IMG/VR virus record: IMGVR_UViG_3300035156_000370
Span: 1-45,715 of that record
Length of the DNA stretch: 45,715 nucleotides
From: a virus
Direction: 5' to 3' (one strand)
Each line of letters begins with the position of its first letter. Position 1 is the stretch's first letter. A program made the translations under genes and the position numbers. The notes beneath the pieces were generated by a model, which saw only the letters and a program-made list of their open reading frames with translations, searched no databases and was not told the origin of the DNA. Positions 1,856 through 24,180 of the stretch are shown piece after piece.

Positions 1856-2070
1856 GCTACCTCGGCCCCTTTCCCAAAGTCGACACAGAGGCAGTGCTCA
1901 CCGAGCTCAAGCGTGAATTACGCATGAGAGAGGGCTGCTATCCGGAGTGGGTGCGGCAGGGCAAATACAAGCTCACCCGCGAAACGGCAGCCCTCCGGAT
2001 TGCCGTGCTCCGCCATGCCATCACCTTGCTTGAGGCGCAGCAGCCTCAGCAGCAAAAACTAGAGCTATGA
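1852..2070 (+). CDS. Small hypothetical early protein
   Basis: A 72-residue, mostly helical charged protein starting in the ATGA overlap with the preceding stop; its own stop overlaps the next start (ATGA again at 2067). Those two 4-base overlaps are the main evidence that it is a real gene in a translationally coupled operon. It has a Gln-rich C-terminus and no motif I recognise. Confidence 0.55.
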   Translation: MSYLGPFPKVDTEAVLTELKRELRMREGCYPEWVRQGKYKLTRETAALRIAVLRHAITLLEAQQPQQQKLEL

Positions 2071-3062
2071 CCTCCGCGCCCGCCCTGATGGTGCCTCACC
2101 GCGGTGATGCCCATCCTACCAATCGAATGAGCTATATCGATTATCTGAACCAATTCAGCCGCTTAAACCAAGAGGAAACTTTTGATGTGTATCAGCGGGC
2201 ACTCTATACCGTGCTGCTAGCCTTTTTTAATGATCGAAAGTGGCAGCAACCTCAGCAGTTTGCTGATGTGTTCCTGGGCAATGCCACCGATATAAAATCA
2301 GTAAATACCCTCAAAAAAGCCCGCGCCGGCCTAGTGGCCCGCGGGCTGATTGAGTTTGACGGTGGCCACCAAGGCGCCGGCAAAAAAGGAGAGTACCGGC
2401 TGCTGCAGGTGGGGGAAGATCAGGCTGAAAAACCGTCACCGAAACTGTCAAGAAAACTGTCACCAGATGACAGTTTATCTACTGATGAGGAAGAAAAACT
2501 GTCAAGAAAACTGTCACCAGATGACACCAACATAAAGAGTATAGATAATAAGATTGACGTAACAGAGAGAGAGCCCTCCGCGCGCGAAAAAAATTTAGTT
2601 GGGGTTGATTTTCGCCCTAACGGCGCTGCCGCGTCGGCTTCGCACACTGGGGGGGGCGCGGCGCCTCTGCCGGAGGATTTACCGGCCCGGCCTGGCTTCA
2701 TTGATCCGCGCCTGAGTGATGATGATCCGCGCAAATGGGAAGCTTTTCCGCGGGATGTGGAAATGATCGACGACTACCTGAGAAACCACCCGAGTCCGGA
2801 GCTCAACCAACACGCCGGCAAAGGGCACCTGTATTGGGCGGAGTATGCCGGCGGGGGGTGGGTGTATGGCCGCTTCAACCGACAGATCCGCAATTGGCGG
2901 GAGCACATCAAAGGGTTCTCTTTCATCGATTTCAAGGCCCAACGGCAAGCTCAGCAAGCTGCCAGCGGCATCTCAGAGGTAGAAAAACGCAATAGTGCCG
3001 GAGACGATGCTAAAGCCATCCTCCGCGCCAAACGCCAACAAAACCAAGGATATCATGAGTGA
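2067..3062 (+). CDS. Replication initiator-like protein (lambda O / helix-turn-helix type)
   Basis: A 331-residue protein with a probable winged-helix domain in the first 115 residues: the TLKKARAGLVARGLIEFDGG...YRLLQVG pattern is the recognition helix and wing found in phage replication proteins. Residues about 118-155 are a linker with two KLSRKLSPDD units. A C-terminal domain (about 225-320) carries WAEYAGGGWVYGRFNRQIRNW. The linker DNA holds repeated AAACTGTCA words and an inverted pair (see 2442-2516), the arrangement of phage lambda, where the origin lies inside the O gene. Function is inferred from architecture. It overlaps the next gene by 8 bp. Confidence 0.6.
   Translation: MTSAPALMVPHRGDAHPTNRMSYIDYLNQFSRLNQEETFDVYQRALYTVLLAFFNDRKWQQPQQFADVFLGNATDIKSVNTLKKARAGLVARGLIEFDGGHQGAGKKGEYRLLQVGEDQAEKPSPKLSRKLSPDDSLSTDEEEKLSRKLSPDDTNIKSIDNKIDVTEREPSAREKNLVGVDFRPNGAAASASHTGGGAAPLPEDLPARPGFIDPRLSDDDPRKWEAFPRDVEMIDDYLRNHPSPELNQHAGKGHLYWAEYAGGGWVYGRFNRQIRNWREHIKGFSFIDFKAQRQAQQAASGISEVEKRNSAGDDAKAILRAKRQQNQGYHE
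2442..2516. repeat. In-gene AAACTGTCA repeats (candidate replication origin iterons)
   Basis: AAACTGTCA occurs at 2442-2450, 2454-2462, 2496-2504 and 2508-2516, and the inverse TGACAGTTT at 2468-2476. The pair 2454-2462/2468-2476 is a perfect 9-bp inverted repeat with a 5-nt spacer. The words come in two clusters 54 bp apart, each encoding KLSRKLSPDD. The same palindrome recurs outside genes at 10343-10369 and 23718-23764, so protein repetition alone does not explain it. An origin role is inference. Confidence 0.55.
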
Positions 3063-4041
3063 GATCCGCCCCATTTCGACCATCATTCAACTCCGACCAA
3101 CCGGCGCCGGTGTTGCCCGAGTGCCGGCTCAGGTGCCGGCCATAGTGCCATCTTTCACGCCGGACTTAGTGCCGGCCACCTTGCCGCCCTCAGTGCAGCA
3201 GGCCGCGCTGCTGCTCTGTGCTCCGGATAACCTGCCAGTAAGACGCATGAGCACCTATGATCTTGAAGAAGATCTAGTTGATTCGCTCAAAGTGGTGCCG
3301 TTCCTACTAGGCCATAGCCGGACGCTGCTCAAAGGAGATGATTTGGCCGTACTCTCTACGGCCGTAGCAGAGATGGTACAGCATAGTTTTCCGGCCTTCA
3401 CGTTGCCAGAAATCAGCCTGGCATTACGCCGGGGCTGCTCCGGAGAGTGGAAAAAGGAAGGCGAGATTTTGCAGTGCTCCCTGCCTCAGATCCGATCTTG
3501 GTTAAAGTCCTATCAGGATTCAAGCCGGGGGGTGGCACTGAAAGCGCTGCAACTGCGTGTTGAGCATCGGCAGCAGTTGGCCTTGCCCGCACCTGATCTG
3601 AGCGTCGGCTACCCTCGGCAGATAGCGGAGCTGGCTCAGCTGGCCTCCGACAACGCCACGCCCGAACACCCGATTGCCCGTTTTCCGGAGCCCTTGGATC
3701 AGGGCAATGTGCTCTACAATTGGCTGAAAGAGGTCGGCGCATTCAACGGCTTCAAAACGCTGGCTCAGTACGTGGACATGCGTCGGAAAGAGGCCATCCT
3801 CCGCGCTCAACGGCCGCCGGATGGCATGGAAGCCTACCGGCACGGCCGCTCCTTTTGGGAGGCCCTACGCGCCGGCAAGTGGCCGGAGAATCACCCGTTT
3901 GCTGATTCAGTGGTGAATGCTTGCCGGAAACGGCTGCTTAGGGATTGGATCAAATACCACCTGAGCATCGGCACCGACATAGAGCAGCACCTGCACCAGT
4001 TGAGGGAAAACTACCTGCACCGCCAAAGCAGCGCCGCCTGA
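3055..4041 (+). CDS. Hypothetical phage protein, possible replication partner
   Basis: I start it at ATG 3055 (MSEIRPIST), which overlaps the stop of the initiator gene and is preceded by AAGGA at 3046-3050, rather than at the upstream in-frame ATG 2995 that would overlap by 68 bp. This gives 328 residues. A conserved-looking segment (about 105-160) reads LPEISLALRRGCSGEW...LPQIRSWLKSYQDS, a pattern I associate with replication-module proteins of Bacteroidota phages whose role is not established. The N-terminal 45 residues are Pro/Val/Ala-rich and probably disordered. Position right after the initiator makes a helicase-loader role conceivable, but no AAA+ motif is visible. Confidence 0.55.
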   Translation: MSEIRPISTIIQLRPTGAGVARVPAQVPAIVPSFTPDLVPATLPPSVQQAALLLCAPDNLPVRRMSTYDLEEDLVDSLKVVPFLLGHSRTLLKGDDLAVLSTAVAEMVQHSFPAFTLPEISLALRRGCSGEWKKEGEILQCSLPQIRSWLKSYQDSSRGVALKALQLRVEHRQQLALPAPDLSVGYPRQIAELAQLASDNATPEHPIARFPEPLDQGNVLYNWLKEVGAFNGFKTLAQYVDMRRKEAILRAQRPPDGMEAYRHGRSFWEALRAGKWPENHPFADSVVNACRKRLLRDWIKYHLSIGTDIEQHLHQLRENYLHRQSSAA

Positions 4042-10342: not shown

Positions 10343-10369
10343 ATAAACTGTCATGCCGTGACAGTTTAT
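10343..10369. promoter_or_regulatory. ATAAACTGTCA palindrome, intergenic copy 1
   Basis: ATAAACTGTCA (10343-10353), 5-nt spacer, TGACAGTTTAT (10359-10369): a perfect 11-bp inverted repeat. Its 9-bp core and spacer length are the same as those inside the replication gene (2454-2476) and at 23730-23752. It is not followed by a U run, so a protein-binding site is more likely than a terminator. Confidence 0.55.
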
Positions 10370-10411: not shown

Positions 10412-10440
10412 GAAAGCCGGCCGATTATCGACCGGCTTTC
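10412..10440. terminator. Terminator of the minus-strand head operon
   Basis: GAAAGCCGG and CCGGCTTTC form a 9-bp stem, with CGAT/ATCG inside. It lies 46 bp past the stop of the minus-strand gene at 10486; on the minus strand it is followed by a T-rich TTGCTTTATC. Probably bidirectional. Confidence 0.75.
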
Positions 10441-10485: not shown

Positions 10486-11034
10486 TTACAATACTGGTAA
10501 CTCAACCACAATGTTCCCGCGGCTCTCCATCTCCAAGTTTTCCACCTCACCGCCGCCGGCATCATGGCCAGCCGCATCGAATAGCCGACACTTGTAGCCT
10601 TGGCTGTACACCCACAGGCCCGGCTGAGTCAGCGGCTCCTTACGCGAGTAGGTACGCACTAAAGCACCGAACCCATCCCCCTCGAAATGCTGCAGTGCCT
10701 GGTGAATGGCGCCAATGGTTTGCAGCTTGGCCATGGCCGCGGACCGTTGGCTGCTGTGCTGATAGCTATCCTGCACTACCTGCACCGCATACGTGAAACG
10801 GATCACAGCCTCTCCGCGCTGGACTCCCTGCAGCAGATCCTGCCACTCTACCTCATCGAATGAAATAAAGAGGCACCCCGCATCATAGGGCAATGGATAA
10901 TCCTGAGCATCCTGCTCAATCTGATCCATATCTAAATCAATCCAGCCAATACCCGGCAGCTGCTCAGCTAGTCGGTCGGCTAGCTGAGGATACACTAGGC
11001 TGAAACTATTCGTGCTTTCTGTTTCGGTGCTCAT
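10486..11034 (-). CDS. Phage head/tail-completion-type protein (tentative)
   Basis: A 182-residue acidic protein, last gene of the minus-strand packaging/head operon, after the gpG-like gene. LVYPQLADRLAEQLPGIGWIDLDMDQIEQ and a later beta-rich part (VIRFTYAVQVVQ, IVVELPVL) resemble the alpha/beta layout of tail-terminator or head-tail completion proteins, which normally stand at this place in Mu-like head operons. I cannot name a family with certainty; the call rests mainly on position. Confidence 0.45.
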   Translation of the reverse strand: MSTETESTNSFSLVYPQLADRLAEQLPGIGWIDLDMDQIEQDAQDYPLPYDAGCLFISFDEVEWQDLLQGVQRGEAVIRFTYAVQVVQDSYQHSSQRSAAMAKLQTIGAIHQALQHFEGDGFGALVRTYSRKEPLTQPGLWVYSQGYKCRLFDAAGHDAGGGEVENLEMESRGNIVVELPVL

Positions 11035-11955: not shown

Positions 11956-14327
11956 CAAAAGGATAGTTGTAGTTGCTGCTCTATCTTTTTAGCTACCTTT
12001 TTCGGCACCTCGGCAAAATAGGGATGCTCATCACCGAACAGCTTGCCAGTGGCGCCGACGTTATGCGCGAACAACTGAGGCACCTGAGGCAGACCCTCCA
12101 ACTGAGCAGCCGTGCTCAGCGGCACCTCATCCTCAACGAGCTCAACGGCATCACACCGGCAGTTCCACGAGTTGGGAGGCAGGTGCTTTAACCAAAAACT
12201 ATGCTCTTTAGGCAAGGTGATACCATCATAGCGCCGGTGCTCTGGCCGTACTAAATCATCACCTACCGTCCTATACTGCAGCAGGCTGCTGGGCTCAAAC
12301 TCGCTCCACTTAGAGGCCATCTGAGCGCCGGCCACCGCATGCTCATACTCTGTTTTGAGATGGTGCACGTTGTAGAGCTGATTCAGCTGCAGGGCATCCG
12401 CTTTGAAGTCTGCAAACGGCCGGATTTCACCGGCCGCATCATAGAGCTTGCGCGTGAGCTCCTGGCAAACCCGGTAGGATTTGAAGCCAGAAAACCGCTG
12501 CACATTCTTGTACAGGAAGGCTTTCAGCTTCTCATCAGGAGCTTTCCACGCAATCTCAATAGCCGCCCCTAGCTGCTCACTGATGTACTCATAAAGGGGC
12601 AAATCCACTAGCAGCGCCTCCGGATCACCGGCGCCGGCATAGAGCACGCTGATCAGCCGCTCCATCAGATCTTGCAGCTTTTTCTCATCGGCAGCAGAGG
12701 CCTGCACCGCGGCCGCGCTATGACCAGTGCTGCAGCAGCTGCCGGCATACAGAGCCGACACATCAGCAGCGGGGCTCACCGGCAAGCCGCCGGCCGGTGA
12801 GCCCTTAGGCTTTCCCGGCAGATCCGGCCCGGGGCCGGCTGCATCAGGATCCGGCTCATCGTCTCCCTCAGGGCGCTGCTCTGGGCTCACCTTGGGCAAG
12901 GTGATGCCGGCTAGCGCTAAGGCTTCAGCGAGTGGCACACCGGCCGCGGTGGCTGCCTGCAGCACGCTCAGCTGCGCTTTGAGCTTGCGCTGAGCTATGG
13001 CCTCATCTTCATTCTCTTCCGGCAGGTTCAGCTGAGCCCGCGCCTCATTGCGGTTCACCACGCCGGCCTCAATGTGATAGCCTAGTATTGGGCGGGCCTC
13101 CGCAGTTGCATCGGCGGCCGTGCCCTGGGTGCCGCCGGCCGCGGCCACGGCCGCAGCATCCGGCTCTAATTCGATGCCAAAGGTGCTCTCTAGCCAAGTG
13201 CGTTTAACCTGGTAGCCAGAATTCTGCATAACCCCCTGCACCATCTCAAAGAGCTCCTTTTTGGTTAGCGTCTCGGAATCATCCCAGGCCACCTCACAGC
13301 CTTTGAGCGGATAGCCGTGCCGGATCAGGAAAGGCAGCAGCGTATCATTGAGCAGGCTAAGCAGAAAATCAGAATCCGCCCGGGTGTAGCTGGCCGCCAC
13401 GCGCTCATGCACCTCACTCTGGGAGAGGCTGCTGCCGCTATCGGTGGTCATGGTTTGCCCTAGAATCAGCTTGCTGAGCTCCGAGTTGGCCCGATCAATG
13501 AACGTATCATATAGCCGCTCATTGGCCGTAGCTGCCGATATCCACTCAATTTTCACATCATCCGGGAACACGCCGTAGGAGGCCTGCCCCATGTTGGCAA
13601 TGATTTCCTCGATACGTTCCAGTTCCTCCCCTTCCGCCTCAGTGGTAACAGCCCGGTAGGGCATACCAAATATCTCGGTGAAGTCAGCCCACGCGCTTAC
13701 CACGTTCTTTTTGTAGAGAGCCATGGGGGCGGCTTTGTTCAGCAGCCCTAAGTCCGTAGGATCACCGACCTCAATCAGCCACGGAGCAAACGCCGGATCC
13801 GTCCGAAACTCAGTACCAGTAATCATGCCGGGCATGGTGCGTACAATGCCGAGCTCCGGAGAGACGTACTGCCGGGGAATCAGATCAACATCCTTGAATT
13901 CTCCCGCTATCGGCAGCGGAAACTCTATGAGGCTGTGGCCATAGTAGATTTTCTCTAGAGCCAGCGTGCAAAACTTCCGGAACCACGGCTTTTTGAGCAG
14001 CTTGGTGAGCTCTGGCTTTTCTACGCCGGCCACGGTCTGCACTTTGAAAGCCCGACTGAGCACATTGATCAACCGGGTTTCCATCACGCTGCTTAGGTGC
14101 AGATCTAGCACCAAGTCAGCGTAGATGTTGAGCAGTTCGGTGCGGTTCGGATAGAAAACTGATTCAGCGCTACTTAAAGCACTCCGCCACTTTCCAACGT
14201 CCTGTCGCAAGCGGTGTACTTGTACCGGATACATCCGATTGCGAATACTTTCTTTACCGGGCTTCTGTGCGCCAAATAGTTTGAATGGATTAAGTTCCGC
14301 TAGCTTCTGAGGAATATTGAAGGCCAT
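11955..14327 (-). CDS. Portal protein fused to MuF-type minor head protein (DUF935 + gpF)
   Basis: A 790-residue protein. Residues about 1-440 are the DUF935 portal family (Mu gp29): the LNIYADLVLDLHLSSVMETR, YYGHSLIEFPL, ILGQTMTTDSGSSLSQSEVHERV and DNDTLLPFLI-like segments are typical; portals form the dodecameric DNA gate at the head vertex. A Pro/Gly-rich linker (about 475-520) leads to a C-terminal gpF/SPP1-gp7 head morphogenesis domain (LLQYRTVGDDLVRPEHRRYDG, HFWL-like, NSWNCRCDAVEL). The first 60 or so codons are a diverged copy of the stub at 23961-24179, and the gene is separated from its terminase genes by the inserted block. Portal and minor head protein are separate genes in Mu. 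Confidence 0.85.
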   Translation of the reverse strand: MAFNIPQKLAELNPFKLFGAQKPGKESIRNRMYPVQVHRLRQDVGKWRSALSSAESVFYPNRTELLNIYADLVLDLHLSSVMETRLINVLSRAFKVQTVAGVEKPELTKLLKKPWFRKFCTLALEKIYYGHSLIEFPLPIAGEFKDVDLIPRQYVSPELGIVRTMPGMITGTEFRTDPAFAPWLIEVGDPTDLGLLNKAAPMALYKKNVVSAWADFTEIFGMPYRAVTTEAEGEELERIEEIIANMGQASYGVFPDDVKIEWISAATANERLYDTFIDRANSELSKLILGQTMTTDSGSSLSQSEVHERVAASYTRADSDFLLSLLNDTLLPFLIRHGYPLKGCEVAWDDSETLTKKELFEMVQGVMQNSGYQVKRTWLESTFGIELEPDAAAVAAAGGTQGTAADATAEARPILGYHIEAGVVNRNEARAQLNLPEENEDEAIAQRKLKAQLSVLQAATAAGVPLAEALALAGITLPKVSPEQRPEGDDEPDPDAAGPGPDLPGKPKGSPAGGLPVSPAADVSALYAGSCCSTGHSAAAVQASAADEKKLQDLMERLISVLYAGAGDPEALLVDLPLYEYISEQLGAAIEIAWKAPDEKLKAFLYKNVQRFSGFKSYRVCQELTRKLYDAAGEIRPFADFKADALQLNQLYNVHHLKTEYEHAVAGAQMASKWSEFEPSSLLQYRTVGDDLVRPEHRRYDGITLPKEHSFWLKHLPPNSWNCRCDAVELVEDEVPLSTAAQLEGLPQVPQLFAHNVGATGKLFGDEHPYFAEVPKKVAKKIEQQLQLSF
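14131..14147. repeat. Candidate attachment core, portal-proximal copy
   Basis: AGCAGTTCGGTGCGGTT encodes (minus strand) the NRTELL segment of the intact portal. It matches 23983-23999 at 16 of 17 positions. Upstream portal codons continue to match the stub at a lower level; past the core, toward the portal 3' end, similarity stops. Confidence 0.45.
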
Positions 14328-14435
14328 AGTAGTAGGAAGTGCGCAGTGTATACCTCTTTTAATTGGCTACTGCACAATTCAGTGCAATTTCTTCATGCCA
14401 TCCGCATCCTACTATAAAAAAGATAGATAATCTGT

Positions 14436-14476
14436 AAACAAGAGACGCCTGCTCTTGAAGCAGGCGTCTCTTGTTT
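14436..14476 (-). terminator. Very strong terminator between homing endonuclease and portal genes
   Basis: A perfect 17-bp stem (AAACAAGAGACGCCTGC with its complement) and 7-nt loop overlap the stop codon of the GIY-YIG gene. It should stop leftward transcription from the recombinase operon, so the intact portal needs its own promoter within 14328-14435. Confidence 0.85.
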
Positions 14477-15308
14477 ATGGCAAATATCGAAAAGTGAAAC
14501 CGGCAGTTTTTCTTCTCTTTCCATGTAATACCCTGTATACGGCGGTTTTGTGAAGACCAAGACTACGGCATATACTATTTACGCTAGGAAAAATATCTAT
14601 TAATCTACCATCTAAAGTTAGTCTTTCTACTTTTTTTGTTGGTTTTCTTTCTTTGTTTAAGGGCAGACATTTAGGCTTCTTCTCTTTCCCGTTTTTATCA
14701 TACTCAGCACGCTTTAGCATGAAGTTTTGATGTGATCTTCTTCCGCGTCTACTGTTTAGTACTGCATCAACTGAAGCTCTGTTCCAGTCAAGTTGCCGAC
14801 ACATTGCACTGGCACTCGGAAATGAGTCTATAAATTTTCCATTCTCATCAAATCGATTGATCTTTTTTCCCGGAGCCACCCATCCATTTCGCACCCGCTC
14901 TCTTGCTAGCGCTGATATGAGAGCTTTCATCTCTGGCGTTCTTTTCTTGCCAGTATTGCTTGCTACTCTTTTCGCAATAGCTTCTGCTGATTGTTTGATC
15001 CCTAGCACCCCCTCGCCTCCATCGGTGGTATTTGTCAGCTCGCTTAGCTGCCTATACTCTTGGATATAAAACCTTTCACGTTCCTGCCATTCTGCTTCGG
15101 TTGTGCGCTCTAGGATTTCCAAAATTGGTTTTTTTCCAAGTGCCAGTAGGCTGCTTAACCAGTGGTTTTTATGAGTGTGGGACCGGCGTTGGCTTGGAAT
15201 TAAGTGAAGCTGCAAGCGTTTCTGCGGATTTTTTGCTTTCCCTATATACCGTACTTGTAAGGTGTCCGGGCATTTCAAGGCATAGATGAATACAGTTGTG
15301 TTTTCCAT
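14475..15308 (-). CDS. GIY-YIG homing endonuclease with NUMOD-type repeats
   Basis: A 277-residue protein. The N-terminal GIY-YIG nuclease is clear: FIY at 7-9, YIG at 21-23, conserved Arg 31 and His 35, the EWQERERFYIQEY helix and NTTDGGEG. It is followed by an NUMOD3-like basic linker and two C-terminal DNA-binding modules of about 50 residues (INRFDENGKFIDSFPSASAMCRQL... and VERLTLDGRLIDIFPSVNSICRSL...), each with an HTH-like helix pair. Such enzymes cut a target lacking the element and spread by repair. It starts 3 bp after the recombinase stop and is probably co-transcribed with it. Confidence 0.9.
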   Translation of the reverse strand: MENTTVFIYALKCPDTLQVRYIGKAKNPQKRLQLHLIPSQRRSHTHKNHWLSSLLALGKKPILEILERTTEAEWQERERFYIQEYRQLSELTNTTDGGEGVLGIKQSAEAIAKRVASNTGKKRTPEMKALISALARERVRNGWVAPGKKINRFDENGKFIDSFPSASAMCRQLDWNRASVDAVLNSRRGRRSHQNFMLKRAEYDKNGKEKKPKCLPLNKERKPTKKVERLTLDGRLIDIFPSVNSICRSLGLHKTAVYRVLHGKRRKTAGFTFRYLP

Positions 15309-15311
15309 CTC

Positions 15312-16631
15312 CTAAGTACCAAAGTGAAACTGAATCACGCGGCCGGCTTCAGGCTCCGGCGTAAAGCCCGGCGCGGCCGGGGGCGGCGTGGGCTTCCCCC
15401 CAAACACGCGGTCAAACTCACTGACTACCGTCTTATTGAGAATAAAGGCGTAGGTGGTTTCCGTCATCTTCACGCTGCTATGGCCTAAGAACTTGCTCAC
15501 CACTTCCATGCGGATACCTTGGTTGAGCAACTGCACCGCCGCCGTTTTGCGCCCGACGTGGCTCGTCATTTTCTCGCTACTAATATCACAGAGTAAGCCC
15601 ACTTCTTTGAGCCGGTAGTTGTAGAGCTGGTTGACCGGCACCCGCAGCCGGTCCCCGTACTTGGCTAAGATGCGCTCCGCCTCTGGTAGCAGGGGAATCA
15701 CGCACTCATAGCCCTTGCGCAAGGTGCTCTTTTGCCGCACCACGCGCAGCACCCGCCGCCCGGTTTCGGCATCTAGTTCCACGCAAGCGGCCACATCCAG
15801 CGCCCGCAAATCCGCGTAGGCTAAGCCCGTCCAACACTGAAACAGAAAGTTATCCCGCGCCCGCTCTAATGCCTTAATGCGGAACTCGGTAGCGGCTAGC
15901 CGCGCTATTTCTTCACTGGTGAGATAGATAATCTCTTTCGGGGCGTTCATGCGGTACTCATAGAGAGCCATCGGATTGCTGCTCAGGTGTTCCCGCCGCA
16001 CGGCCCACTTGAGCACCTGTGAGACGTATTTGAGGTGCTTGAGGGCCGTGTTGCGCTCGGATTGCTCGGCAATCAGCAGCCAATGCAGATACTTGTCCCC
16101 CATACTGTGCCCGAACTCTTCGGGCCGCAGGTCTGGCAAGCCGTGCGCCTCCAAAAAGGCCATTAGCTTACTCAAGCGGGCCTGTCCGCTTTTCAGGGTG
16201 GCAGCACTGATTTCAATGCCCACCAGGGCTTGCCGTTCGGCTAGGTAGGCCGTGTAGAGTTCGGGCAAGCTCAGCAGGCTGCCGGCCGATTTATACAGGC
16301 GGGCCAAGGCTTGCGCACTCACCGGCCGGCCCTGCCGCTCTAGGTCGGCGTGTAGGTCGTGTAGATCATCCAGCATCTTGACCAAGGCACGGTTGTAGCG
16401 CTTGACCCGCTCACTACTGCCCTGCACTCGTTGGGCTTCCGCGCTCCACTCCGCATAGGGCAGGCGGATATAGGTGCTCAGCGTCGTGCGCTTGCCGCGC
16501 ACGGTCAGCCGCAGGACGAGGGTACCGACGGTATCAGGGGGTATCACGGGCTTTTTAGAGGGGGGAACCAGGATAAGGACGCAGTCTTTGGGCTTGCGAA
16601 ACACGAACGTGAAGGAAACGGGCGTTTTCAT
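15312..16631 (-). CDS. Tyrosine recombinase of the inserted element
   Basis: A 439-residue Bacteroidota-type integrase: N-terminal arm-binding domain (1-110), core-binding SAM-like domain (about 120-225) and catalytic domain. The catalytic residues look complete: R276 (TGLAYADLRAL), H358 and R361 (TSHVGRKT), H384 (FLGHSS) and nucleophile Y394. The arm domain is clearly related to that of the broken integrase at the right edge (shared FVFRKPKDC and PPSKKPVIPP). Its start overlaps the stop of the 96-residue gene upstream by 4 bp. A Pro-rich tail is unusual. It probably integrates and excises the 14131-23999 block. Confidence 0.9.
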   Translation of the reverse strand: MKTPVSFTFVFRKPKDCVLILVPPSKKPVIPPDTVGTLVLRLTVRGKRTTLSTYIRLPYAEWSAEAQRVQGSSERVKRYNRALVKMLDDLHDLHADLERQGRPVSAQALARLYKSAGSLLSLPELYTAYLAERQALVGIEISAATLKSGQARLSKLMAFLEAHGLPDLRPEEFGHSMGDKYLHWLLIAEQSERNTALKHLKYVSQVLKWAVRREHLSSNPMALYEYRMNAPKEIIYLTSEEIARLAATEFRIKALERARDNFLFQCWTGLAYADLRALDVAACVELDAETGRRVLRVVRQKSTLRKGYECVIPLLPEAERILAKYGDRLRVPVNQLYNYRLKEVGLLCDISSEKMTSHVGRKTAAVQLLNQGIRMEVVSKFLGHSSVKMTETTYAFILNKTVVSEFDRVFGGKPTPPPAAPGFTPEPEAGRVIQFHFGT

Positions 16632-16918
16632 TGCGCGGTCCCTCCTTTCTCGGCGCTGAGCGCTTGCCGGCTTTCAAGCACGGCCGCTTTCTCTTCCGAC
16701 AGGCGCAACTGCTCTAGGGTATAGTCGAGCAGCAACTTGGAAATCTGAATGCCGACTTCATGACTCACCGGAATTTCGCGCTGCTGTTCAGGCGCCGGGC
16801 CACAGCGTAAGGTGATGCCCATCATCTCACCGGCCTGAATGGCCTGTTCATAGAGCGTGGGCACACTCGTCAAGGCACTGCTCTGAGCAGTGCCTGACAC
16901 AAGTATCTGCATCGCCAC
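16628..16918 (-). CDS. Small protein upstream of the recombinase
   Basis: A 96-residue protein without a recognised family. The C-terminal half is a Leu/Glu-rich helix (LDYTLEQLRLSEEKAAVLESRQAL). Its stop overlaps the recombinase start (ATGA), and it follows the 111-residue gene by 3 bp, so all three are read together. A directionality-factor or recombinase-helper role is possible from position only. Confidence 0.5.
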   Translation of the reverse strand: MAMQILVSGTAQSSALTSVPTLYEQAIQAGEMMGITLRCGPAPEQQREIPVSHEVGIQISKLLLDYTLEQLRLSEEKAAVLESRQALSAEKGGTAQ

Positions 16919-16921
16919 GGG

Positions 16922-17257
16922 TTAGGCGGCGTGGGCAGTGGTGATAGCGAATTCGGCCGGCAGCCAGGCTTCGCGGCGCTTGGCTTCGCGGTAGACGTTG
17001 CAAAACCAGCGCTGTAGCTGTACGATACACGCGCACTGATACACGCTGTCGTTGGCTACCAGACGCTCGGTTTCGGTGAAGACGGTAGCATCCTCCATCA
17101 AGGCCGTGATGTTGTAGCGCATGGCCGTAAGCGTAGCTTGCGCAGCGGCTTGCTTTACTTCTGCTTGCTTTTGCAGGAAGCGGGCAAGTGGCCCGGTGTA
17201 GGTGGGGAGGTGGCCAGCAACTGTTAGCGCAGTTGCGGCGGTGGTTGCAGTTTGCAT
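16922..17257 (-). CDS. Small protein, first gene of the recombinase operon
   Basis: A 111-residue, Ala/Thr-rich helical protein; no HTH or other motif I can name. It begins the leftward operon 16922-16628-15312-14475, about 120 bp from the palindrome cluster at 17376-17454 that could control both directions. Confidence 0.5.
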   Translation of the reverse strand: MQTATTAATALTVAGHLPTYTGPLARFLQKQAEVKQAAAQATLTAMRYNITALMEDATVFTETERLVANDSVYQCACIVQLQRWFCNVYREAKRREAWLPAEFAITTAHAA

Positions 17258-17375
17258 ACCTTTGTAAATAAGTAGGTGAAAGAATCGGGGTTAGCGCCCC
17301 GGCTCTGAATCGGGAGGTCACTTGTTAGCGCAGGTGGCCTCTTTCTCTTTCAGAACATGACAAAGATACATAATA

Positions 17376-17454
17376 TTCTTACGTAAGAAAATTAATACAT
17401 AAATAAATTCTTGTTTGTTTTCTTACGTAAGAATGTAGAAATATATTTCTACAT
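17376..17454. promoter_or_regulatory. Operator cluster: three palindromes and a -7 box
   Basis: TTCTTACGTAAGAA occurs as a perfect 14-bp palindrome at 17376-17389 and again at 17420-17433, 44 bp apart (about four helical turns). Directly next to the second is TGTAGAAATATATTTCTACA (17434-17453), a perfect 20-bp palindrome. A TACATTTG box (17450-17457), a perfect match to TAnnTTTG, overlaps its right edge, only 8 bp before the ATG at 17465. This is a classic divergent control region between the recombinase operon and the small regulator. Confidence 0.7.
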
Positions 17455-17464
17455 TTGGTTCACC

Positions 17465-17650
17465 ATGCAAGAGGAACCAAAAAAGGCAGGCCGGCCAACT
17501 AAGGATAAAACCCGCCACAAAAAAGGACGCACCTTATCTTTTACTGATGCTGAATATGCCGAGCTAACCGCTCAAGCGGTGGCGGCTAAATTGGGTGTAA
17601 GCGAGTATGTAATTGAGAAGCTAGGATTGCGTAAGCCTCCAACACTCTAA
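17465..17650 (+). CDS. Small ribbon-helix-helix/MobC-like DNA-binding protein
   Basis: I start it at ATG 17465, giving 61 residues: GRPTKDKTRHKKGRTLSFTDAEYAELTAQAVAAKLGVSEYVIEKLGL. A basic arm, a short beta strand (RTLSFTDAEY) and two helices are the layout of ribbon-helix-helix proteins, including MobC-type relaxosome accessory proteins and plasmid or phage regulators. The start is 8 bp after a TAnnTTTG box, so the mRNA may be nearly leaderless. The neighbouring palindromes are its likely operators (inference). Confidence 0.6.
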   Translation: MQEEPKKAGRPTKDKTRHKKGRTLSFTDAEYAELTAQAVAAKLGVSEYVIEKLGLRKPPTL

Positions 17651-17841
17651 AAGCCTTTTTCGGAGCGTCAGGCTTGCCGGCGAGGCAGCTACCTCGCGCT
17701 AAATTGAGCGCACTTGGCACCGTTGCGAATCGGGGTCAGCGAGTTTACCATTGCAACGCTTGAACTGGACGAACCCTAGGCATAGCACCATAATTTCTTT
17801 GCTAATTATTAACCTTTGGTGTTAATATTTCGTACATTTGT

Positions 17842-18183
17842 ATGCATATAAGTTTTGCCACTCGCAAGCTCCAGAAGTCACTTAGTGATACCGCCGAACG
17901 AGCAAAAAACTATGGGGCAGTATGTGGCAAAATCATAGGCAGGCGCTTGGACACTATGGCGGCTGCTACCACTTTAGAGGATTTGCGTCATGTTCCTGGT
18001 AAATTTCACGCTCTCTCATATGATCGTAAAGGCGAGCTTTCTTGCCATTTAGAAGAGCCACTTAGACTGATCTTTCGAGTCAACCATGATCCTTTACCCC
18101 TCGATGAAAATGACGAATTAATCTGGTCTCAGGTAACTCAAGTCGAAGTACTTGAGGTTATCGACTACCATCGTAAGAAATAA
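17842..18183 (+). CDS. HigB/RelE-like toxin of a type II toxin-antitoxin pair
   Basis: A 113-residue protein matching the RelE/ParE-superfamily killer proteins: ISFATRKLQKSL at the start, KIIGRRLDTMAAATTLEDLRHVPGKFHALSYDRKGELSCHLEEPLRLIF in the middle and VEVLEVIDYHRK at the end. Family members cut mRNA on the ribosome or act similarly. Toxin-first order with an HTH antitoxin behind it is that of higBA. A TACATTTG box ends one base before the ATG. The gap 17651-17841 holds a small GCGAGG/CCTCGC hairpin and nothing else evident. Confidence 0.8.
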   Translation: MHISFATRKLQKSLSDTAERAKNYGAVCGKIIGRRLDTMAAATTLEDLRHVPGKFHALSYDRKGELSCHLEEPLRLIFRVNHDPLPLDENDELIWSQVTQVEVLEVIDYHRKK

Positions 18184-18207
18184 CACACTTTCAACGACCG
18201 TACTACT

Positions 18208-19323
18208 ATGTATCTATATCAGCCTGACAGCGTTAGTCACCCCGGAGAAATGCTTGCCGAAGCATTAGAGGAAAATGATAACATGTCGCAGAAAGAACTT
18301 GCTGCACGCACAGGCCGACCCCTTAAAACCATCAACGAAATCATTCAAGGTAAAGCCTCTATCAAGTCAGAGACGGCTGTACAACTAGAGAAAGTCCTGC
18401 ATATTCCGGCTAAACTTTGGCTGCAATACCAAGCCAATTATGATGAGTCTGTTGCGCGCCAAGCTGAGATTGCCCGGTTCGAGGTGGATGCTCAATGGAT
18501 GGCTCGTTTCCCTGTAGGTGATATGACCAAATGCGGTTGGTTGCCAGCTACTAAAGACAAGCGTCAAGTGCTGGCAAGCATGCTTGAATTTTTCTCTGTG
18601 GCTAGCCCAAAAGGCTGGAACGACATGTGGTTAGCACCAAGCGCCCGCTTTCGTATCTCCTTGGCTCACACTTCGTCCCCGGAATCTGTATCAGCCTGGC
18701 TTCGTCATGGTGAAATCTGTGCTAGTCAAATGGACTTGCCAGCCTTCAATGCTAAGCGATTTGAAGAAGGCTTGTCACGGTTGCGCACGTTCATAAAAGA
18801 AGACAACTTAGAAGTTGTACAGCAAGCTATGCGCGAAGAGTGTAAAGCTGCTGGCGTATCCTTGGTATTTACGCAGTGTTTGAAACATGCCCCAATTAGT
18901 GGAGCCGTTCGATGGATCAATGATCGTCCAGTCATGCAGATTTCAGGACGTTTCAAATACGATGACCATATCTGGTTTACTTTTTTCCATGAAGCAGCAC
19001 ACATTTTACTACATGGAAAACAGCAAGTTTTTTTAGAAGGTACTACTGAAACTAACGAGCAGCATCAAGAAGCAGAAGCAGAGGCTAATCAATATGCCGC
19101 TGATTTCTTAATCCCTTCCAAAGAGCGAGAGGAATTTATTGAGGCTGCGAACTTCACTAAAGCAGCCATTTTAGCTTTTGCAAAAAAGCTGAAAGTTGCT
19201 CCGGGCATTATAGTGGGACAACTGCAAAAATATCAAGTGGTTCCTTATGGCACGCGGCTTAATTATTTAAAACGACAATTTGATTTATCAATGGATGAGC
19301 TGCCGCTAAATAACGCAGCTTAA
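18208..19323 (+). CDS. Antitoxin: XRE HTH fused to ImmA/IrrE metallopeptidase domain
   Basis: A 371-residue protein. Residues about 10-75 are a HigA-type XRE helix-turn-helix (HPGEMLAEALEENDNMSQKELAARTGRPLKTINEII...LEKVLHIPAKLWLQ). The C-terminal part has the zinc-protease motif of the ImmA/IrrE family, FFHEAAHILLH, with H261, E262 and H265, and further acidic residues in EAEAEANQYAADFLIP. It is much longer than plain HigA (about 100 residues). The HTH should repress the pair and neutralise the toxin; the peptidase could link release to a signal such as DNA damage, as for ImmA. Confidence 0.85.
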   Translation: MYLYQPDSVSHPGEMLAEALEENDNMSQKELAARTGRPLKTINEIIQGKASIKSETAVQLEKVLHIPAKLWLQYQANYDESVARQAEIARFEVDAQWMARFPVGDMTKCGWLPATKDKRQVLASMLEFFSVASPKGWNDMWLAPSARFRISLAHTSSPESVSAWLRHGEICASQMDLPAFNAKRFEEGLSRLRTFIKEDNLEVVQQAMREECKAAGVSLVFTQCLKHAPISGAVRWINDRPVMQISGRFKYDDHIWFTFFHEAAHILLHGKQQVFLEGTTETNEQHQEAEAEANQYAADFLIPSKEREEFIEAANFTKAAILAFAKKLKVAPGIIVGQLQKYQVVPYGTRLNYLKRQFDLSMDELPLNNAA

Positions 19324-19374
19324 GCGTTGATCACATAGCAAGTATTTTCTATTTAATTCAATAAATAAAAAATA

Positions 19375-19773
19375 ATGTCGACTATTATTCGTGAAGGCAG
19401 TTCAATACTGGGAACAGCTCTGTTCAACTGGGATGGAAAGAATTTGCGTCGAGGCAGCTCAGCATTTGGGACCATTGTGGCAAATTGGGATGGTAAAAAC
19501 ATCCGTGAAGGCAGCTCAATGTTTGGTTCTATTCTCTTCAATTGGGATGGGAAAAACTTACGCAAAGGTAGCTCAGCATTAGGTTCTACTCTCTTTAATT
19601 GGGATGGAAAGAATATCCATCAAGGTAGCTCCATATTAGGTTCCACTGTTTTTAATTGGGATGGCAAGAATGTCCGTAAAGGCAGTTCAATATTGGGAAC
19701 TATCTCAATGAATATAGCTGGCCCTATTCCTGAGGCCATATTAATTGCCGTAGCAACTAATAGCATTTCATAA
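19375..19773 (+). CDS. WDGK tandem-repeat protein
   Basis: A 132-residue protein built almost wholly from a 19-residue (57-bp) unit with consensus R-x-G-S-S-x-x-G-x-x-x-x-N-W-D-G-K-N-(L/I/V): five full copies and one partial copy, then a hydrophobic tail (GPIPEAILIAVATNS). The alternating G-S-S and W-D-G-K turns imply a small all-beta repeat fold, similar in style to beta-flower/YD-like repeats, but I cannot assign a family. No signal peptide. Moderately AT-rich DNA. It lies between the toxin-antitoxin pair and membrane or surface genes, so it is likely cargo. Confidence 0.65.
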   Translation: MSTIIREGSSILGTALFNWDGKNLRRGSSAFGTIVANWDGKNIREGSSMFGSILFNWDGKNLRKGSSALGSTLFNWDGKNIHQGSSILGSTVFNWDGKNVRKGSSILGTISMNIAGPIPEAILIAVATNSIS

Positions 19774-19790
19774 AACTAAATAATAAGCCG

Positions 19791-19808
19791 TGGGGTGCTA
19801 GCACTCCA
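19791..19808. terminator. Small hairpin after the repeat gene
   Basis: TGGGGTGCTAGCACTCCA is an 18-bp palindrome with one G-U pair, 17 bp after the repeat-protein stop and 15 bp before the next start. No U run, so termination would be weak. Confidence 0.35.
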
Positions 19809-19823
19809 AAGACAGTCTATTAT

Positions 19824-20450
19824 ATGAAGGTTGGAGTAGCGACTGTGATAGCGGCTGTTTTCGCTACAGGTAGCGGTATAGGAGTTGCCTATTACAATGC
19901 AAAAGAGCAGCGGGAACTGGAACGAGAGCAATTTCAATCTAATCTTATCCAGCAATCCATTGATTTCAAGGATTATAAGCAGAGCAGAGCTAATCTTAAA
20001 TTCTTGATAGATGTGGGTCTTATTGCCGAGAACAACAAGAAGATAAATTCTTTTATTCGGGATACTAGCGTGCATTTGCAGCGCCCAGTTGACCGCTTGC
20101 CAATTGCTGAACCTGCCGTCAGCAAGCCCTATAAAATTGGGCAATTCAGTGAATCTTACCTAAATGGAACAGTTGTTGACGCCTTAACAAAGCGCCCGAT
20201 TGTTGGCGCTATAGTTATCATAGAGACTTATCAACCGAGATACTATGGGCGTCCAGAACCACCGGCCCCTGAAGCAGAGAAAATGGTAACTAGACGCGAT
20301 GGGAAATACCAAGTACACAAACCGTGGGGCGACTACTTTCTCTACATTCAGCGCCCAGGGTATGAAAGCCTTAAACTATCCACGCTAGGGTTTAGTGATT
20401 TGCCAGATGAGCAAACAGTTGAGCTTGAGCGGAAAGAGAGCGATAATTAG
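19824..20450 (+). CDS. Membrane-anchored protein with a carboxypeptidase-regulatory-like domain
   Basis: A 208-residue protein. An N-terminal membrane helix (VGVATVIAAVFATGSGIGVAYY, residues 2-24) is followed by a charged helical region (25-75) and a C-terminal Ig-like beta domain: LNGTVVDALTKRPIVGAIVIIE...TRRDGKYQVHKPWGDYFLYIQRPGYESLKL is the pattern of CarboxypepD_reg/CNA-B-like domains, often surface-exposed. No enzyme motif is visible. Function unknown; probably cargo of the inserted element acting at the envelope. Confidence 0.6.
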   Translation: MKVGVATVIAAVFATGSGIGVAYYNAKEQRELEREQFQSNLIQQSIDFKDYKQSRANLKFLIDVGLIAENNKKINSFIRDTSVHLQRPVDRLPIAEPAVSKPYKIGQFSESYLNGTVVDALTKRPIVGAIVIIETYQPRYYGRPEPPAPEAEKMVTRRDGKYQVHKPWGDYFLYIQRPGYESLKLSTLGFSDLPDEQTVELERKESDN

Positions 20451-20498
20451 AATTTTTTATAAAAGAATGTTTAAAATAACTGTTAAAGTTTCAATTAA

Positions 20499-21164
20499 AT
20501 GATAAAAATCAATCACAAACAACTAGCTGGTGCAATAATTATTTTATTTGTTGTTATAATATATTCTATATATGAGCCTAACATGGCATCTTTTTTTATA
20601 TGTTTTATAATCTATTTATTCGCATGGATAACTGCTTATTTTTTCAGAAAAACAACGATAGGAAAATACCTGCATTTTATTCTTAGTATTCCTGCTGCGT
20701 TTATACTATATGCAGGGGATTATGCAATTGCGCTTGGTGCAGTTTTATTTACAAGTGCAGTAGTTCTTATGTTATCAGTATATGCATTTGGTATTATTCC
20801 TAATAAAATATTAGGAATTTCAATTAACGATGCTACGACTTTGTATCTATCATTAACTTTCTCATCTATCATAATGACGAGTTTTGGCGATACCTTAGTT
20901 AACTTCTGGCATTATATACAAAGTCCTGATGAACGCAGTAAATTAAGTAATCTATCTACAAGAATATTAGATCAGCGTAAGATTAGATATGTATTATTTT
21001 TTTGCTACTTCATAGTATTATTATTTCTAAATTATTGTGTATTAAATCAAATAGAAATATTTTTAACTCCCAAGATGGATACAGCAATCCTCCAAGCTTT
21101 TGCTACTTATGTAGCATACGACAGACTAGCTTCAAATTGGAATGCTATAATGAATACTAAGTAA
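20499..21164 (+). CDS. Multi-pass membrane protein
   Basis: A 221-residue, very hydrophobic protein with about six membrane helices (roughly residues 9-27, 28-48, 60-80, 80-103, 113-132 and 162-185). The gene is strikingly AT-rich with AT-ending codons compared with the GC-rich phage genes, a sign of recent transfer. No family recognised. It converges with the lipoprotein gene (3-bp gap). A membrane effector of an exclusion or abortive-infection system is one possibility, without direct evidence. Confidence 0.6.
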   Translation: MIKINHKQLAGAIIILFVVIIYSIYEPNMASFFICFIIYLFAWITAYFFRKTTIGKYLHFILSIPAAFILYAGDYAIALGAVLFTSAVVLMLSVYAFGIIPNKILGISINDATTLYLSLTFSSIIMTSFGDTLVNFWHYIQSPDERSKLSNLSTRILDQRKIRYVLFFCYFIVLLFLNYCVLNQIEIFLTPKMDTAILQAFATYVAYDRLASNWNAIMNTK

Positions 21165-21167
21165 TAA

Positions 21168-21581
21168 TTATTTCGATTCTATATACTTGCCAGAATCAAA
21201 CGGATCAGGAGTGAACACATATAGATCAATCGAATTATTTACTAACACTTGAGCTATTACCTTACGCTGCAACGCTTCTGCCTTATCATACATGCCATCC
21301 TTACCAGGAGTGAAATCATCGGCATCAATAAAGGCGATTACCGTCGCTTCGCCCGTGGTCTTAGCCTCTTGTGCGGCTGTCTCGCGTAACAACTGCCAAC
21401 ACGCGCTACTTTTCGGATTGAAGTTGGGGACTGTGTGATACATCCTGATCTGCTTTCCAGCTACTGCCATTATAGGCTCCGAAACTTGTGGGCAAGATAT
21501 TGTAGCAGATGCAGCCTGCTGAGTAGAGGGGTCTGCTGAGCAAGAGGCTAGCAAAAGGAGAAAAGTAAAGTAGCGTTTCAT
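21168..21581 (-). CDS. Lipoprotein
   Basis: A 137-residue protein with a clear lipoprotein signal, MKRYFTFLLLLASC (lipobox Cys 14). The mature part contains Cys residues at about 30 and 61 and a domain ending IDLYVFTPDPFDSGKYIESK. No family recognised. It is the only leftward gene between 17.4 and 23.8 kb, so it is probably transcribed on its own. Confidence 0.6.
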   Translation of the reverse strand: MKRYFTFLLLLASCSADPSTQQAASATISCPQVSEPIMAVAGKQIRMYHTVPNFNPKSSACWQLLRETAAQEAKTTGEATVIAFIDADDFTPGKDGMYDKAEALQRKVIAQVLVNNSIDLYVFTPDPFDSGKYIESK

Positions 21582-21619
21582 TGATTATAAGTTGATTAGT
21601 CGGCAAAGATAATTTTACT

Positions 21620-21667
21620 CGTTAAAGGGTGAAATTATCACTCTTTAACGGGGAATATTTCCCCGTT
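21620..21667. promoter_or_regulatory. Two adjacent hairpins/palindromes upstream of tape measure copy 1
   Basis: CGTTAAAGGGTGA/TCACTCTTTAACG (21620-21632/21638-21650) is immediately followed by and overlaps AACGGGGAA/TTCCCCGTT (21647-21655/21659-21667). They sit between divergent genes (lipoprotein leftward, tape measure rightward). A related CCCCTTTAAAGGGG palindrome precedes the late operon at 27287-27300. Terminator or binding site. Confidence 0.45.
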
Positions 21668-21700
21668 TAAATAATTCACTTCTTTTTATGTTACTATAAC

Positions 21701-21735
21701 AGGAGAGCTTGCGGCATCATTCATGCTGCTCTCCT
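21701..21735 (+). promoter_or_regulatory. Inverted repeat ending at the start codon of tape measure copy 1
   Basis: AGGAGAGC (21701-21708) and GCTCTCCT (21728-21735) form a perfect 8-bp inverted repeat with a 19-nt spacer; the second arm ends at the base before ATG 21736. In RNA it would close a hairpin against the start codon and bury the purine-rich AGGAG. It is absent in front of copy 2. Confidence 0.4.
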
Positions 21736-23385
21736 ATGCCTTCGCTTCTTAATTTCAAGCTTACTCTAGAGGATTATCTAGGGCCCAAACTCGCTCAATT
21801 ATCCGCTAAAGTAGAAGCGTTTGGCAGCAAAGTAGAAAAGCCGCATAAGGTCAAAGTAGATACGCAGCAAGCTTCCGGAGGACTCAGCAAGCTGGCCTCG
21901 CTGGCATCGGGTGCCTTCGCTGCTCTTGGCGTCTTTGAGGCTGCGAAAAGCCTCGTGAAAATGGGCAGTGAATTAGAGCAGACGCGCATCCAATTCGAGA
22001 CCTTCGCCGGCTCAGCAGAGAAAGGAAATGCCGTACTAGCTGACTTGCAGAAATTCGCGCAAGTCACGCCGTTTGAGGACGGGCAAGTAATCAGCGCCGG
22101 CCGGCAGTTGATGGCCTTCGGAGAGAAAGCCGAAAATCTAAACCCAATCTTGACGAAGTTGGGTAACATCAGTTCAGCCACTGGTAAGGACTTTAACGAG
22201 TTGGTGTCTTTGTGGGGCAAAAACAAGCTCAGCGGCATCATCCAAGGGGAAGACTTGAATCAGCTAGTTGACTCCGGCATTCCGGTAATGGATAGCCTAG
22301 CTCGGCAGTTAGGCGTGACCACGGCAGAGGTCCGCAAAATGGGGGCTGATGGAAAAATCAGCTTTGGCATGCTGGACAAAGCTTTTGATGAGCTCGGCGG
22401 CGCTGGTGGCAAGTGGGGCAACTTGATGGAAAAGCAGAGCAAAACCTTTGCCGGCCGGCTTTCTTCGTTGGTAGGTTTCGCTCAGAACATCGGTGGCAAG
22501 CTTGGGGAGGCCCTCACGCCTGGCTTGGGCAAGATTGTTGATGCCGGAAGCCGCTTGCTCACTTTCGTAAGCGAAAACACACAGAACATCAAAGCTATGT
22601 TCGCGCCTTTGCTGCTAGCTGTGCAACCTCTTGTTGATGCCTTCGATCAGGTGATGGTGCAGTTTGGCATGACCGGGGACGGGGCCGGCTATCTAACGGG
22701 CCTCTTTAACGGAATGGCGACGGTGATAACCTACCTGAGTCCGGTAATCAAAGTGGCCGCTACGGCATTGGGGGCTATGTATGTGAAGGTGTATAGCCTG
22801 ATCGGAGCCCTGGCTAAGTTTGTCGAGACGAGCCCGCGCCTACAGAAGTTTTTCGCCGGTTTACTCGGCGGGGCTACTGCTGCCTTTAAGGGTGTCGCAG
22901 AGGCAGCTACCAGCCTGTTTGGGGGGCTTGCTGATATTATTGAGGGAGTGTTTACGCTCAACTTTGGTAAGCTTAAAACGGGCCTCAAGGATACGCTCAT
23001 GAGCTTAGCATCCGGGGGCACCATTGCCGAAAAGGCCGGGCGGGGTTTTGCGGATGGCTATCAGAAAGGATTCAAAAAATCTACGCTGTTCGACAAAGCC
23101 AAGGAGCCGGCCGCTGACTCTGCTGCCGCTGCTTTCATGGCCTCAGGGGCCAAGCCCGGTGCCGCGCCAGCTTCGCTCGCGCCAAGTCTGAAAGAAAAGG
23201 CCGGCACTGCTGGGGCCGCCGGTAGCTCGAAGGTGACCAACATCACGCTTAACATCCGGGAGCTGATTCATGAACTCAAAGTGGAGGCGGCTACCGTGAC
23301 GGAGGGCGCCGATCAGATTGCCAGCATCGTGTTGCAGAAACTGATGGCTAGCCTCAATGATGTGAATACAATAGCTTCTACCTAA
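21736..23385 (+). CDS. Tape measure protein, copy 1 (in inserted element)
   Basis: A 549-residue protein, clearly homologous over its whole length to the copy at 34070-35716 and of practically the same length. The N-terminal tape-measure domain (GSELEQTRIQFETFAGSAEKGNAVLADLQKFAQVTPFEDGQVI) is the phage tape measure core. The middle carries hydrophobic helices, and the C-terminus ends in ATVTEGADQIASIVLQKLMASLNDVNTIAST, nearly identical in both. Tape measure length sets tail length. Codon use differs from copy 2, so the duplication is old or came from a related phage. No chaperone genes precede it. Confidence 0.85.
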   Translation: MPSLLNFKLTLEDYLGPKLAQLSAKVEAFGSKVEKPHKVKVDTQQASGGLSKLASLASGAFAALGVFEAAKSLVKMGSELEQTRIQFETFAGSAEKGNAVLADLQKFAQVTPFEDGQVISAGRQLMAFGEKAENLNPILTKLGNISSATGKDFNELVSLWGKNKLSGIIQGEDLNQLVDSGIPVMDSLARQLGVTTAEVRKMGADGKISFGMLDKAFDELGGAGGKWGNLMEKQSKTFAGRLSSLVGFAQNIGGKLGEALTPGLGKIVDAGSRLLTFVSENTQNIKAMFAPLLLAVQPLVDAFDQVMVQFGMTGDGAGYLTGLFNGMATVITYLSPVIKVAATALGAMYVKVYSLIGALAKFVETSPRLQKFFAGLLGGATAAFKGVAEAATSLFGGLADIIEGVFTLNFGKLKTGLKDTLMSLASGGTIAEKAGRGFADGYQKGFKKSTLFDKAKEPAADSAAAAFMASGAKPGAAPASLAPSLKEKAGTAGAAGSSKVTNITLNIRELIHELKVEAATVTEGADQIASIVLQKLMASLNDVNTIAST

Positions 23386-23395
23386 AACAAAGCAG

Positions 23396-23689
23396 ATGAC
23401 AGTGCAACAACATGATCTAGAGCGGTTAGCGGCTAGTCCGTTGCCGGATGGAAGCTTATTTAAGAAAGCAAAGGTAGTCCCCGCTGAGTGGAAGCGTTTG
23501 CAGCCGGGGCAAAAGATAATTGTGCGGCTGAAGGGTAGCAGTGACTTGCTAGGCATTGAAGTAGTAACGAATCAGCTAGCACACCCGGCCGCGCCGTGCT
23601 TGGTTGGCCGGCAACTTAAAGGAGAGGAAACGGCCACGTTTAAACGGCGTGACATTCGGGATATTCAGCTTTTTGAGGTGCGGCGTTAA
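23396..23689 (+). CDS. Hypothetical protein behind tape measure copy 1
   Basis: A 97-residue basic protein starting 10 bp after the tape measure stop. Beta-rich pattern (QKIIVRLKGSSDLLGIEVVTNQL). No relation to the DUF6046-like gene that follows copy 2, so the duplicated segment ends at the tape measure gene. No family recognised. Confidence 0.5.
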   Translation: MTVQQHDLERLAASPLPDGSLFKKAKVVPAEWKRLQPGQKIIVRLKGSSDLLGIEVVTNQLAHPAAPCLVGRQLKGEETATFKRRDIRDIQLFEVRR

Positions 23690-23717
23690 GGGCACCTAAG
23701 AACTATTCGGCGTAATA

Positions 23718-23764
23718 ATGCTACCCCATAAACTGTCACCGTATGACAGTTTATGGGGTAGCAT
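23718..23764. terminator. Long palindrome containing the ATAAACTGTCA motif (terminator-like)
   Basis: A perfect inverted repeat with 21-bp arms (23718-23738 and 23744-23764) and a 5-nt loop, followed by TGTTTTTT. The inner part, AAACTGTCA-N5-TGACAGTTT, is the same as at 2454-2476 and 10345-10367. It separates convergent genes (23689 plus, 23783 minus), so termination is likely, but the shared core suggests an added sequence-specific role. Confidence 0.7.
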
Positions 23765-23782
23765 TGTTTTTTCAATCTAATA

Positions 23783-23959: not shown

Positions 23960-23960
23960 A

Positions 23961-24179: not shown

Positions 24180-24180
24180 G

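Follow-up and report, generated by a model that had tools for sequence, protein, structure and literature searches.

The window analysed here, i.e., the whole stretch of 45,715 bp, is one complete phage record of IMG/VR (IMGVR_UViG_3300035156_000370). It contains a replication initiator gene (2067..3062, + strand; 331 amino acids), which was assigned by PHROG, an AlphaFold model and a fold match, an array of short repeats within this gene, two further copies of a palindrome of this array outside the gene, and a mobile element in the portal gene.

The initiator gene and its internal iteron array

The initiator comprises a winged helix at residues about 21-118, followed by a disordered linker, which is encoded by the iterons, and a C-terminal part. 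The N-terminal part is predicted to be a winged-helix DNA-binding domain (codons 21-118; 2127..2420, + strand) from predicted secondary structure and fold matches, with a predicted recognition helix at about residues 79-91, and the AlphaFold model, which is poor as a whole, reaches pLDDT values of 58-88 over residues 21-120. In PHROG, the window initiator matches replication-initiation and DnaD-like families and the initiators of the relatives match 'replication initiation O-like'. In the fold comparison, initiators of RepA_N plasmids and the RepA of the PLE satellite (4pql, 4pt7, 5kbj, 4ro3) are among the top matches of the winged helix, with a Z of 7-9, a value that barely exceeds the Z of unrelated winged helices. 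Pfam gave no family for the window initiator at E 0.01, RepA_N (PF06970) included, and for this reason we describe it as working like a RepA_N protein without classing it as a member; a sequence search against solved structures returned nothing useful for the initiator. The gene directly 3' of it (2995..4041, + strand) is kept in several relatives, and its product is possibly a helicase loader, a guess from its position only.

The half-site AAACTGTCA is present in nine copies in the window (2442+, 2454+, 2468-, 2496+, 2508+, 10345+, 10359-, 23730+, 23744-), a number that dinucleotide shuffles, with an expectation of 0.16, never reached. Three AAACTGTCA-N5-TGACAGTTT dyads with 0 mismatches are formed at 2454-2476, 10345-10367 and 23730-23752 (expected 0.01), and no others were found in the whole window when up to 3 mismatches were allowed. 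Both counts are far above chance, and a recount agreed exactly with a preliminary description of this DNA, which had listed the three dyads and three further half-sites in the gene. The spacers are CCAGA, TGCCG and CCGTA in the order of these sites, and the perfect arms of the two outside dyads extend to 11 bp (10343-10369) and 22 bp (23717-23765). The suggestion that the dyads bind a protein is supported by arms that are constant and spacers and flanks that are variable, also between phages.

The array within the initiator gene (2430..2530, + strand), which is the proposed origin, is composed of half-sites at 2430 (1 mismatch), 2442, 2454, 2468 (- strand), 2496 and 2508 and a partial inverted site at 2522; it contains a 54-bp direct duplication, and the half-sites are phased by 12 bp, i.e., four codons. 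In the dyad AAACTGTCA-CCAGA-TGACAGTTT (2454..2476, unstranded) translation of the inverted half-site at 2468 runs in a different frame and gives DDSL instead of KLS, so that a repeat at the protein level cannot account for the dyad. The serine of every KLS unit is encoded by TCA, which the phage uses less than any other serine codon (7%). When the gene was recoded synonymously, with the protein held constant and codons sampled from the phage's own usage (n=20,000), at most three copies were obtained (once in 20,000) against the five observed, and the dyad arose in 2 of the 20,000 recodings. The in-gene repeats are a DNA-level feature under selection and no by-product of the protein. The iterons adjoin an A+T-rich stretch (2531..2600, + strand; 61% A+T compared to 45.5% in the whole window), which is a possible unwinding element; G+C skew gave no origin signal in the window.

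Comparable arrays are found in the relatives of the initiator, which are few and distant (viral_contigs, phages, plasmids and 395 genomes of one phylum) and, as far as found, are phages of Bacteroidota. The iteron sequence mostly differs from relative to relative and the location in the linker is constant: TGTCTAGGTT is present eight times in G007, AACTATAGACAA in G008, CCGGAATTATTCCGG in G004, AAGGGAATTTTTCCCTCC in G005, CTTAAGTAAA in Bacteroides phage BS-TP3 (L150 has an array like it), TGATACRGTTTC in Riemerella phage PT03, and palindromes of ACGCCGGAA in L157. A clustered repeat beats nearly all codon permutations in eight of nine initiator genes (0-8 of 300 permutations reach it), PT03 being the exception with 37 of 300, and is shown by none of four control genes; this clustered statistic was chosen second, after a first whole-gene repeat statistic had proved underpowered. 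With such clustering in eight of nine initiators, in-gene arrays are usual for this phage group. A direct-repeat pattern scan of viral_contigs gave 56 matches, with only that of G001 inside an initiator, and in G409 no clear array was found beside the orthologue of the downstream gene. The expectation that homologous initiators would contain a dyad held for the closest ones (G001 with two mismatches, G408 with a half-site of its own) and failed for the more distant ones, which have iterons only.

The lambda O gene contains internal iterons followed by an A+T-rich stretch, and the window gene has the same arrangement, unlike lambda O in the sequence and spacing of its half-sites; we know of no second, distant O-binding dyad in lambda. 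The lambda-like in-gene origin proposed before fits the order of winged helix and iteron-encoded linker as well as the homologues' own arrays at the same place, and an in-gene replication origin of the phage is well supported by these sequence features. The Rep protein of plasmid pSK41 binds to Rep boxes within its own gene, where the origin encodes a dispensable linker (PMC5703833). The window initiator resembles such RepA_N replicons in its winged-helix N-terminal domain of about 120 residues, the origin boxes within the gene and the origin-encoded linker, but differs by combining direct and inverted half-sites and by an additional distant dyad. By analogy to lambda O and RepA_N proteins, we infer that the linker arrays of the group are origins. 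No replication study of this phage group was found.

Co-variation of the in-gene array with a distant dyad

The distant intergenic dyad (10343..10369, unstranded) has 11-bp arms and no T-run and lies between convergent gene ends. It is adjoined by a separate terminator-like hairpin of the late operon (10412..10440, - strand), the last gene of this leftward operon being 10486..11034 (- strand); its orthologues identify the corresponding gap in the relatives G001 and G408. The local A+T content at the distant site is 62% in the window and 53% in G001. As had been described, both outside sites are located at transcription-unit ends, i.e., at the 3' ends of convergent units, one of them within the mobile element.

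The initiator of the sister phage G001 is 45-50% identical to that of the window, and its linker contains seven half-sites with the same 12-bp phasing and a dyad with two mismatches compared to the window dyad. G001 also has an exact window-type dyad outside the gene (23629-23651), which is located in the same gap, downstream of the 10486-11034 orthologue, and differs in spacer and flanks. The second phage, G408 (IMGVR_UViG_3300034008_000092; 38,544 bp), was obtained in the last library scan. Its initiator linker is arranged similarly to that of the window, including an N5 dyad, with AAACCATCA as half-site, and the whole G408 record contains exactly two AAACCATCA-N5-TGATGGTTT dyads, one in the gene (24419) and the other at 11258-11280, i.e., 42 bp past the stop of the 10486-11034 orthologue and before the convergent early operon. 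No window-type dyad was found in G408 and no G408-type dyad in the window or in G001. Both half-site differences (TG against CA) are therefore present in the in-gene array of G408 and 13 kb away from it, and this identical change at both sites points to one protein that reads both: the simplest explanation is that a single protein recognises the in-gene array and the distant dyad, a reading that is well supported by the sequence comparison, in a small sample of three phages whose records are all metagenome assemblies. The candidate for this reader is the initiator, since the predicted recognition helix is nearly identical in the window (SVNTLKKARA) and G001 (SVNSLKKARA), which share the half-site, and different in G408 (AEGTVRKGLA); the shared reader of both sites is very probably the initiator.

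A different protein, such as a phage regulator or a host factor, might use the dyads as operators and also bind within the initiator gene. The same 23-bp dyad is indeed present in unrelated bacteria: in genome_contigs (about 85,000 species genomes) it occurs exactly in 55 places, one per genome with a single exception, and 24 of the 55 adjoin genes for AbiEi-like winged-helix proteins of about 212 amino acids, mostly just upstream (loci L009-L061; Chlamydiae, Spirochaetes, Legionellales and others). The remaining ones are long-stem terminators and scattered others, and there are no relatives of the phage among the 55 places. The dyad is probably a conserved operator of this AbiEi-like family, as for the antitoxin operators of type IV toxin-antitoxin systems, and other proteins can thus probably read the same sequence; its rarity together with the AbiEi association suggests that it is a good target of winged helices and not common chromosomal DNA. 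However, an AbiEi-like gene is absent from the window (marginal matches only, to one ORF of the structural region), the likeness looks like convergence on the same palindrome, and the outside dyads of the phage are found at gene ends rather than at promoters. Moreover, the other phages of the group have different iterons, yet in the same initiator linker, and the changed half-site of G408 accompanies a change in the initiator's recognition helix, so that we regard an operator of a different protein as improbable.

The position of every outside copy at convergent gene ends also fits RNA hairpins, i.e., terminators or 3'-end stabilisers of convergent operons, in which case the sharing with the initiator gene would be incidental. 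The distant dyad of G408 is embedded centrally in an inverted repeat whose 28-bp arms match perfectly and which may act as a hairpin or cruciform; the copy at 23717-23765 combines a stem of 22 bp with a T-run. A G+C-rich hairpin with a T-run, as in intrinsic terminators, is found at the latter site and not at 10345, the T-run being absent from the distant sites of the window, G001 and G408, which are adjoined by separate terminator-like hairpins. Furthermore, the sequence of a stem is free, yet in each of the three phages its central 9 bp coincide with the in-gene iterons of that phage, and we judge a pure RNA function to be quite improbable.

In the other relatives, i.e., G004, G005, G007, G008 and BS-TP3, the search for a distant dyad built from their own motif found none; their arrays have one direction only in G007, G008 and BS-TP3 and other palindromes in G004 and G005. 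A distant dyad is hence not required by initiators with in-gene iterons. The contig L063, whose terminase is 66% identical, has palindromes in the same gap and contains no initiator.

Possible roles of the distant dyad

In the mechanism that we propose, the initiator (2067-3062) would recognise the 9-bp AAACTGTCA through its N-terminal winged helix, the half-site array in the linker-coding DNA beside the A+T-rich stretch would be the replication origin of the phage, and the dyad at 10345 would be a second, distant binding site of the same initiator, 7.9 kb off. We assign a probability of roughly 0.7 to this reading of one initiator with an in-gene origin and a distant site, in which binding by the initiator, the start of replication within the gene and the function of the distant dyad are what we infer. 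The distant dyad sits between the convergent early and late operons, and because of this location transcription should stay off the site, little of it being expected across.

A pair of initiator sites is known from the Bacillus phage SPP1, in which gp38 binds oriL inside gene 38 and the intergenic oriR about 12-13 kb away, and forks are proposed to stall at the initiator on oriR, which would trigger concatemer synthesis (PMC6316719, PMC3485210). The window phage likewise contains a second site of the same sequence, intergenic and outside the initiator gene. In SPP1, oriR is made up of direct repeats with an unwinding region (PMC6316719, PMC3485210), unlike the single palindromic dyad at the distant site of the window. 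The likeness is one of site layout; SPP1 is a Bacillus phage, and the relatives identified here belong to Bacteroidota phages. By this analogy, the initiator bound at the distant dyad might stall or redirect forks coming from the in-gene origin and thereby switch replication from theta to concatemer synthesis; alternatively, the distant dyad might be a second origin. An oriR-like role is the likeliest single role of the distant dyad, and it is put forward tentatively, as somewhat short of an even chance.

The same sites and the same initiator could also serve looping or copy control by the distant site, for which P1 incA handcuffing and P4 crr are parallels. A lone dyad is more in keeping with binding by a dimer or with bridging than with an origin, and the distance between origin and distant site, which is 7.9 kb in the window, 12.4 kb in G001 and 13.2 kb in G408, varies as looping would tolerate, but looping would not need the conserved position between convergent operons. 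The data do not separate looping from an SPP1-type role, and we consider looping or copy control a serious possibility that nevertheless falls well below an even chance.

Origins within initiator genes are already known; in the phages studied here, natural co-variation picks out a partner site 8-13 kb away. This suggests that the pair of initiator sites of the SPP1 type is more widespread, or has arisen again. The window and G001 on the one side and G408 on the other provide matched pairs for testing the specificity of the initiator and the role of the second site.

The mobile element in the portal gene and its dyad

The third dyad sits in the middle of an inverted repeat with perfect 22-bp arms (23717..23765, unstranded), with TTGTTTTTT next to it on the + strand, and is located between convergent gene ends near the right end of a mobile element of about 9.85 kb (14131..23983, unstranded). 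This element is low in G+C and inserted near codon 66 of the portal gene. It is absent from G001 and G408, and as gp36 and the portal gene are adjacent there, the region of about 14131-23983 represents an insertion into the portal gene. A repeat of 205 bp (14131-14335 and 23983-24187; 71% DNA identity) flanks the insertion, by which the element supplies a diverged replacement of the portal 5' end; in this way the portal reading frame stays whole, and a 5' fragment of the portal gene is left beside gp36 (23961-24254). The element encodes a tyrosine integrase (15312..16631, - strand; Pfam PF00589, PF13102, PF17293), for which no relatives were found in viral_contigs, a second, full-length tape-measure gene (21709..23385, + strand; 72% DNA identity to 34070-35716 of the phage), a GIY-YIG endonuclease, a toxin-like protein and an HTH-peptidase regulator.

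That an exact 18-bp match should occur by chance within 10 kb is very unlikely. The dyad at 23730 might be a captured or a convergent copy of the distant site, and its hairpin and T-run indicate that this copy may have a double role. If the element had picked up its copy from the phage's distant site and were also acted on by the phage initiator, the initiator could replicate excised element DNA or steer forks across the element. This proposal is speculative and in our view unlikely; if true, the element would be a phage parasite that replicates by the origin-binding protein of its own host phage, and the site copy in a portal-gene element raises the question of whether phage parasites use the phage initiator. 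Palindromes with arms of about 11 bp, one of them near the right end of the element, are also reminiscent of core sites of integrases, by which the dyads would be recombination sites that imported the element. Yet the element ends in the portal gene at about 14131 and 23983, away from the dyads, and the 10345 dyad has counterparts in phages without the element, which makes a recombination site hardly credible.

A few further observations concern mobile DNA in these phages. In G008 (IMGVR_UViG_2895847146_000003), a 23-kb insertion (about 17600-40860) splits the terminase large subunit gene; the 5' end of terL is found on either side of it, and the junction contains a small HTH-like ORF that resembles 23783-23959 (- strand) of the window. 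This insertion appears to be another instance of the lifestyle of the window element; no dyad of G008's own iteron was found in it. The window element contains four copies of the 57-bp tandem repeat AATTGGGATG (19375-19773) in its gene for a 6-fold beta flower protein. A perfect hairpin with 19-bp arms is located at its left end, downstream of the GIY-YIG gene (14435-14477), so that long hairpins are present at both ends of the element (14435-14477 and 23717). Finally, the phage's own integrase is apparently split at the contig end into 44486-45277 and 45350-45715, which correspond to the catalytic and arm-binding parts.
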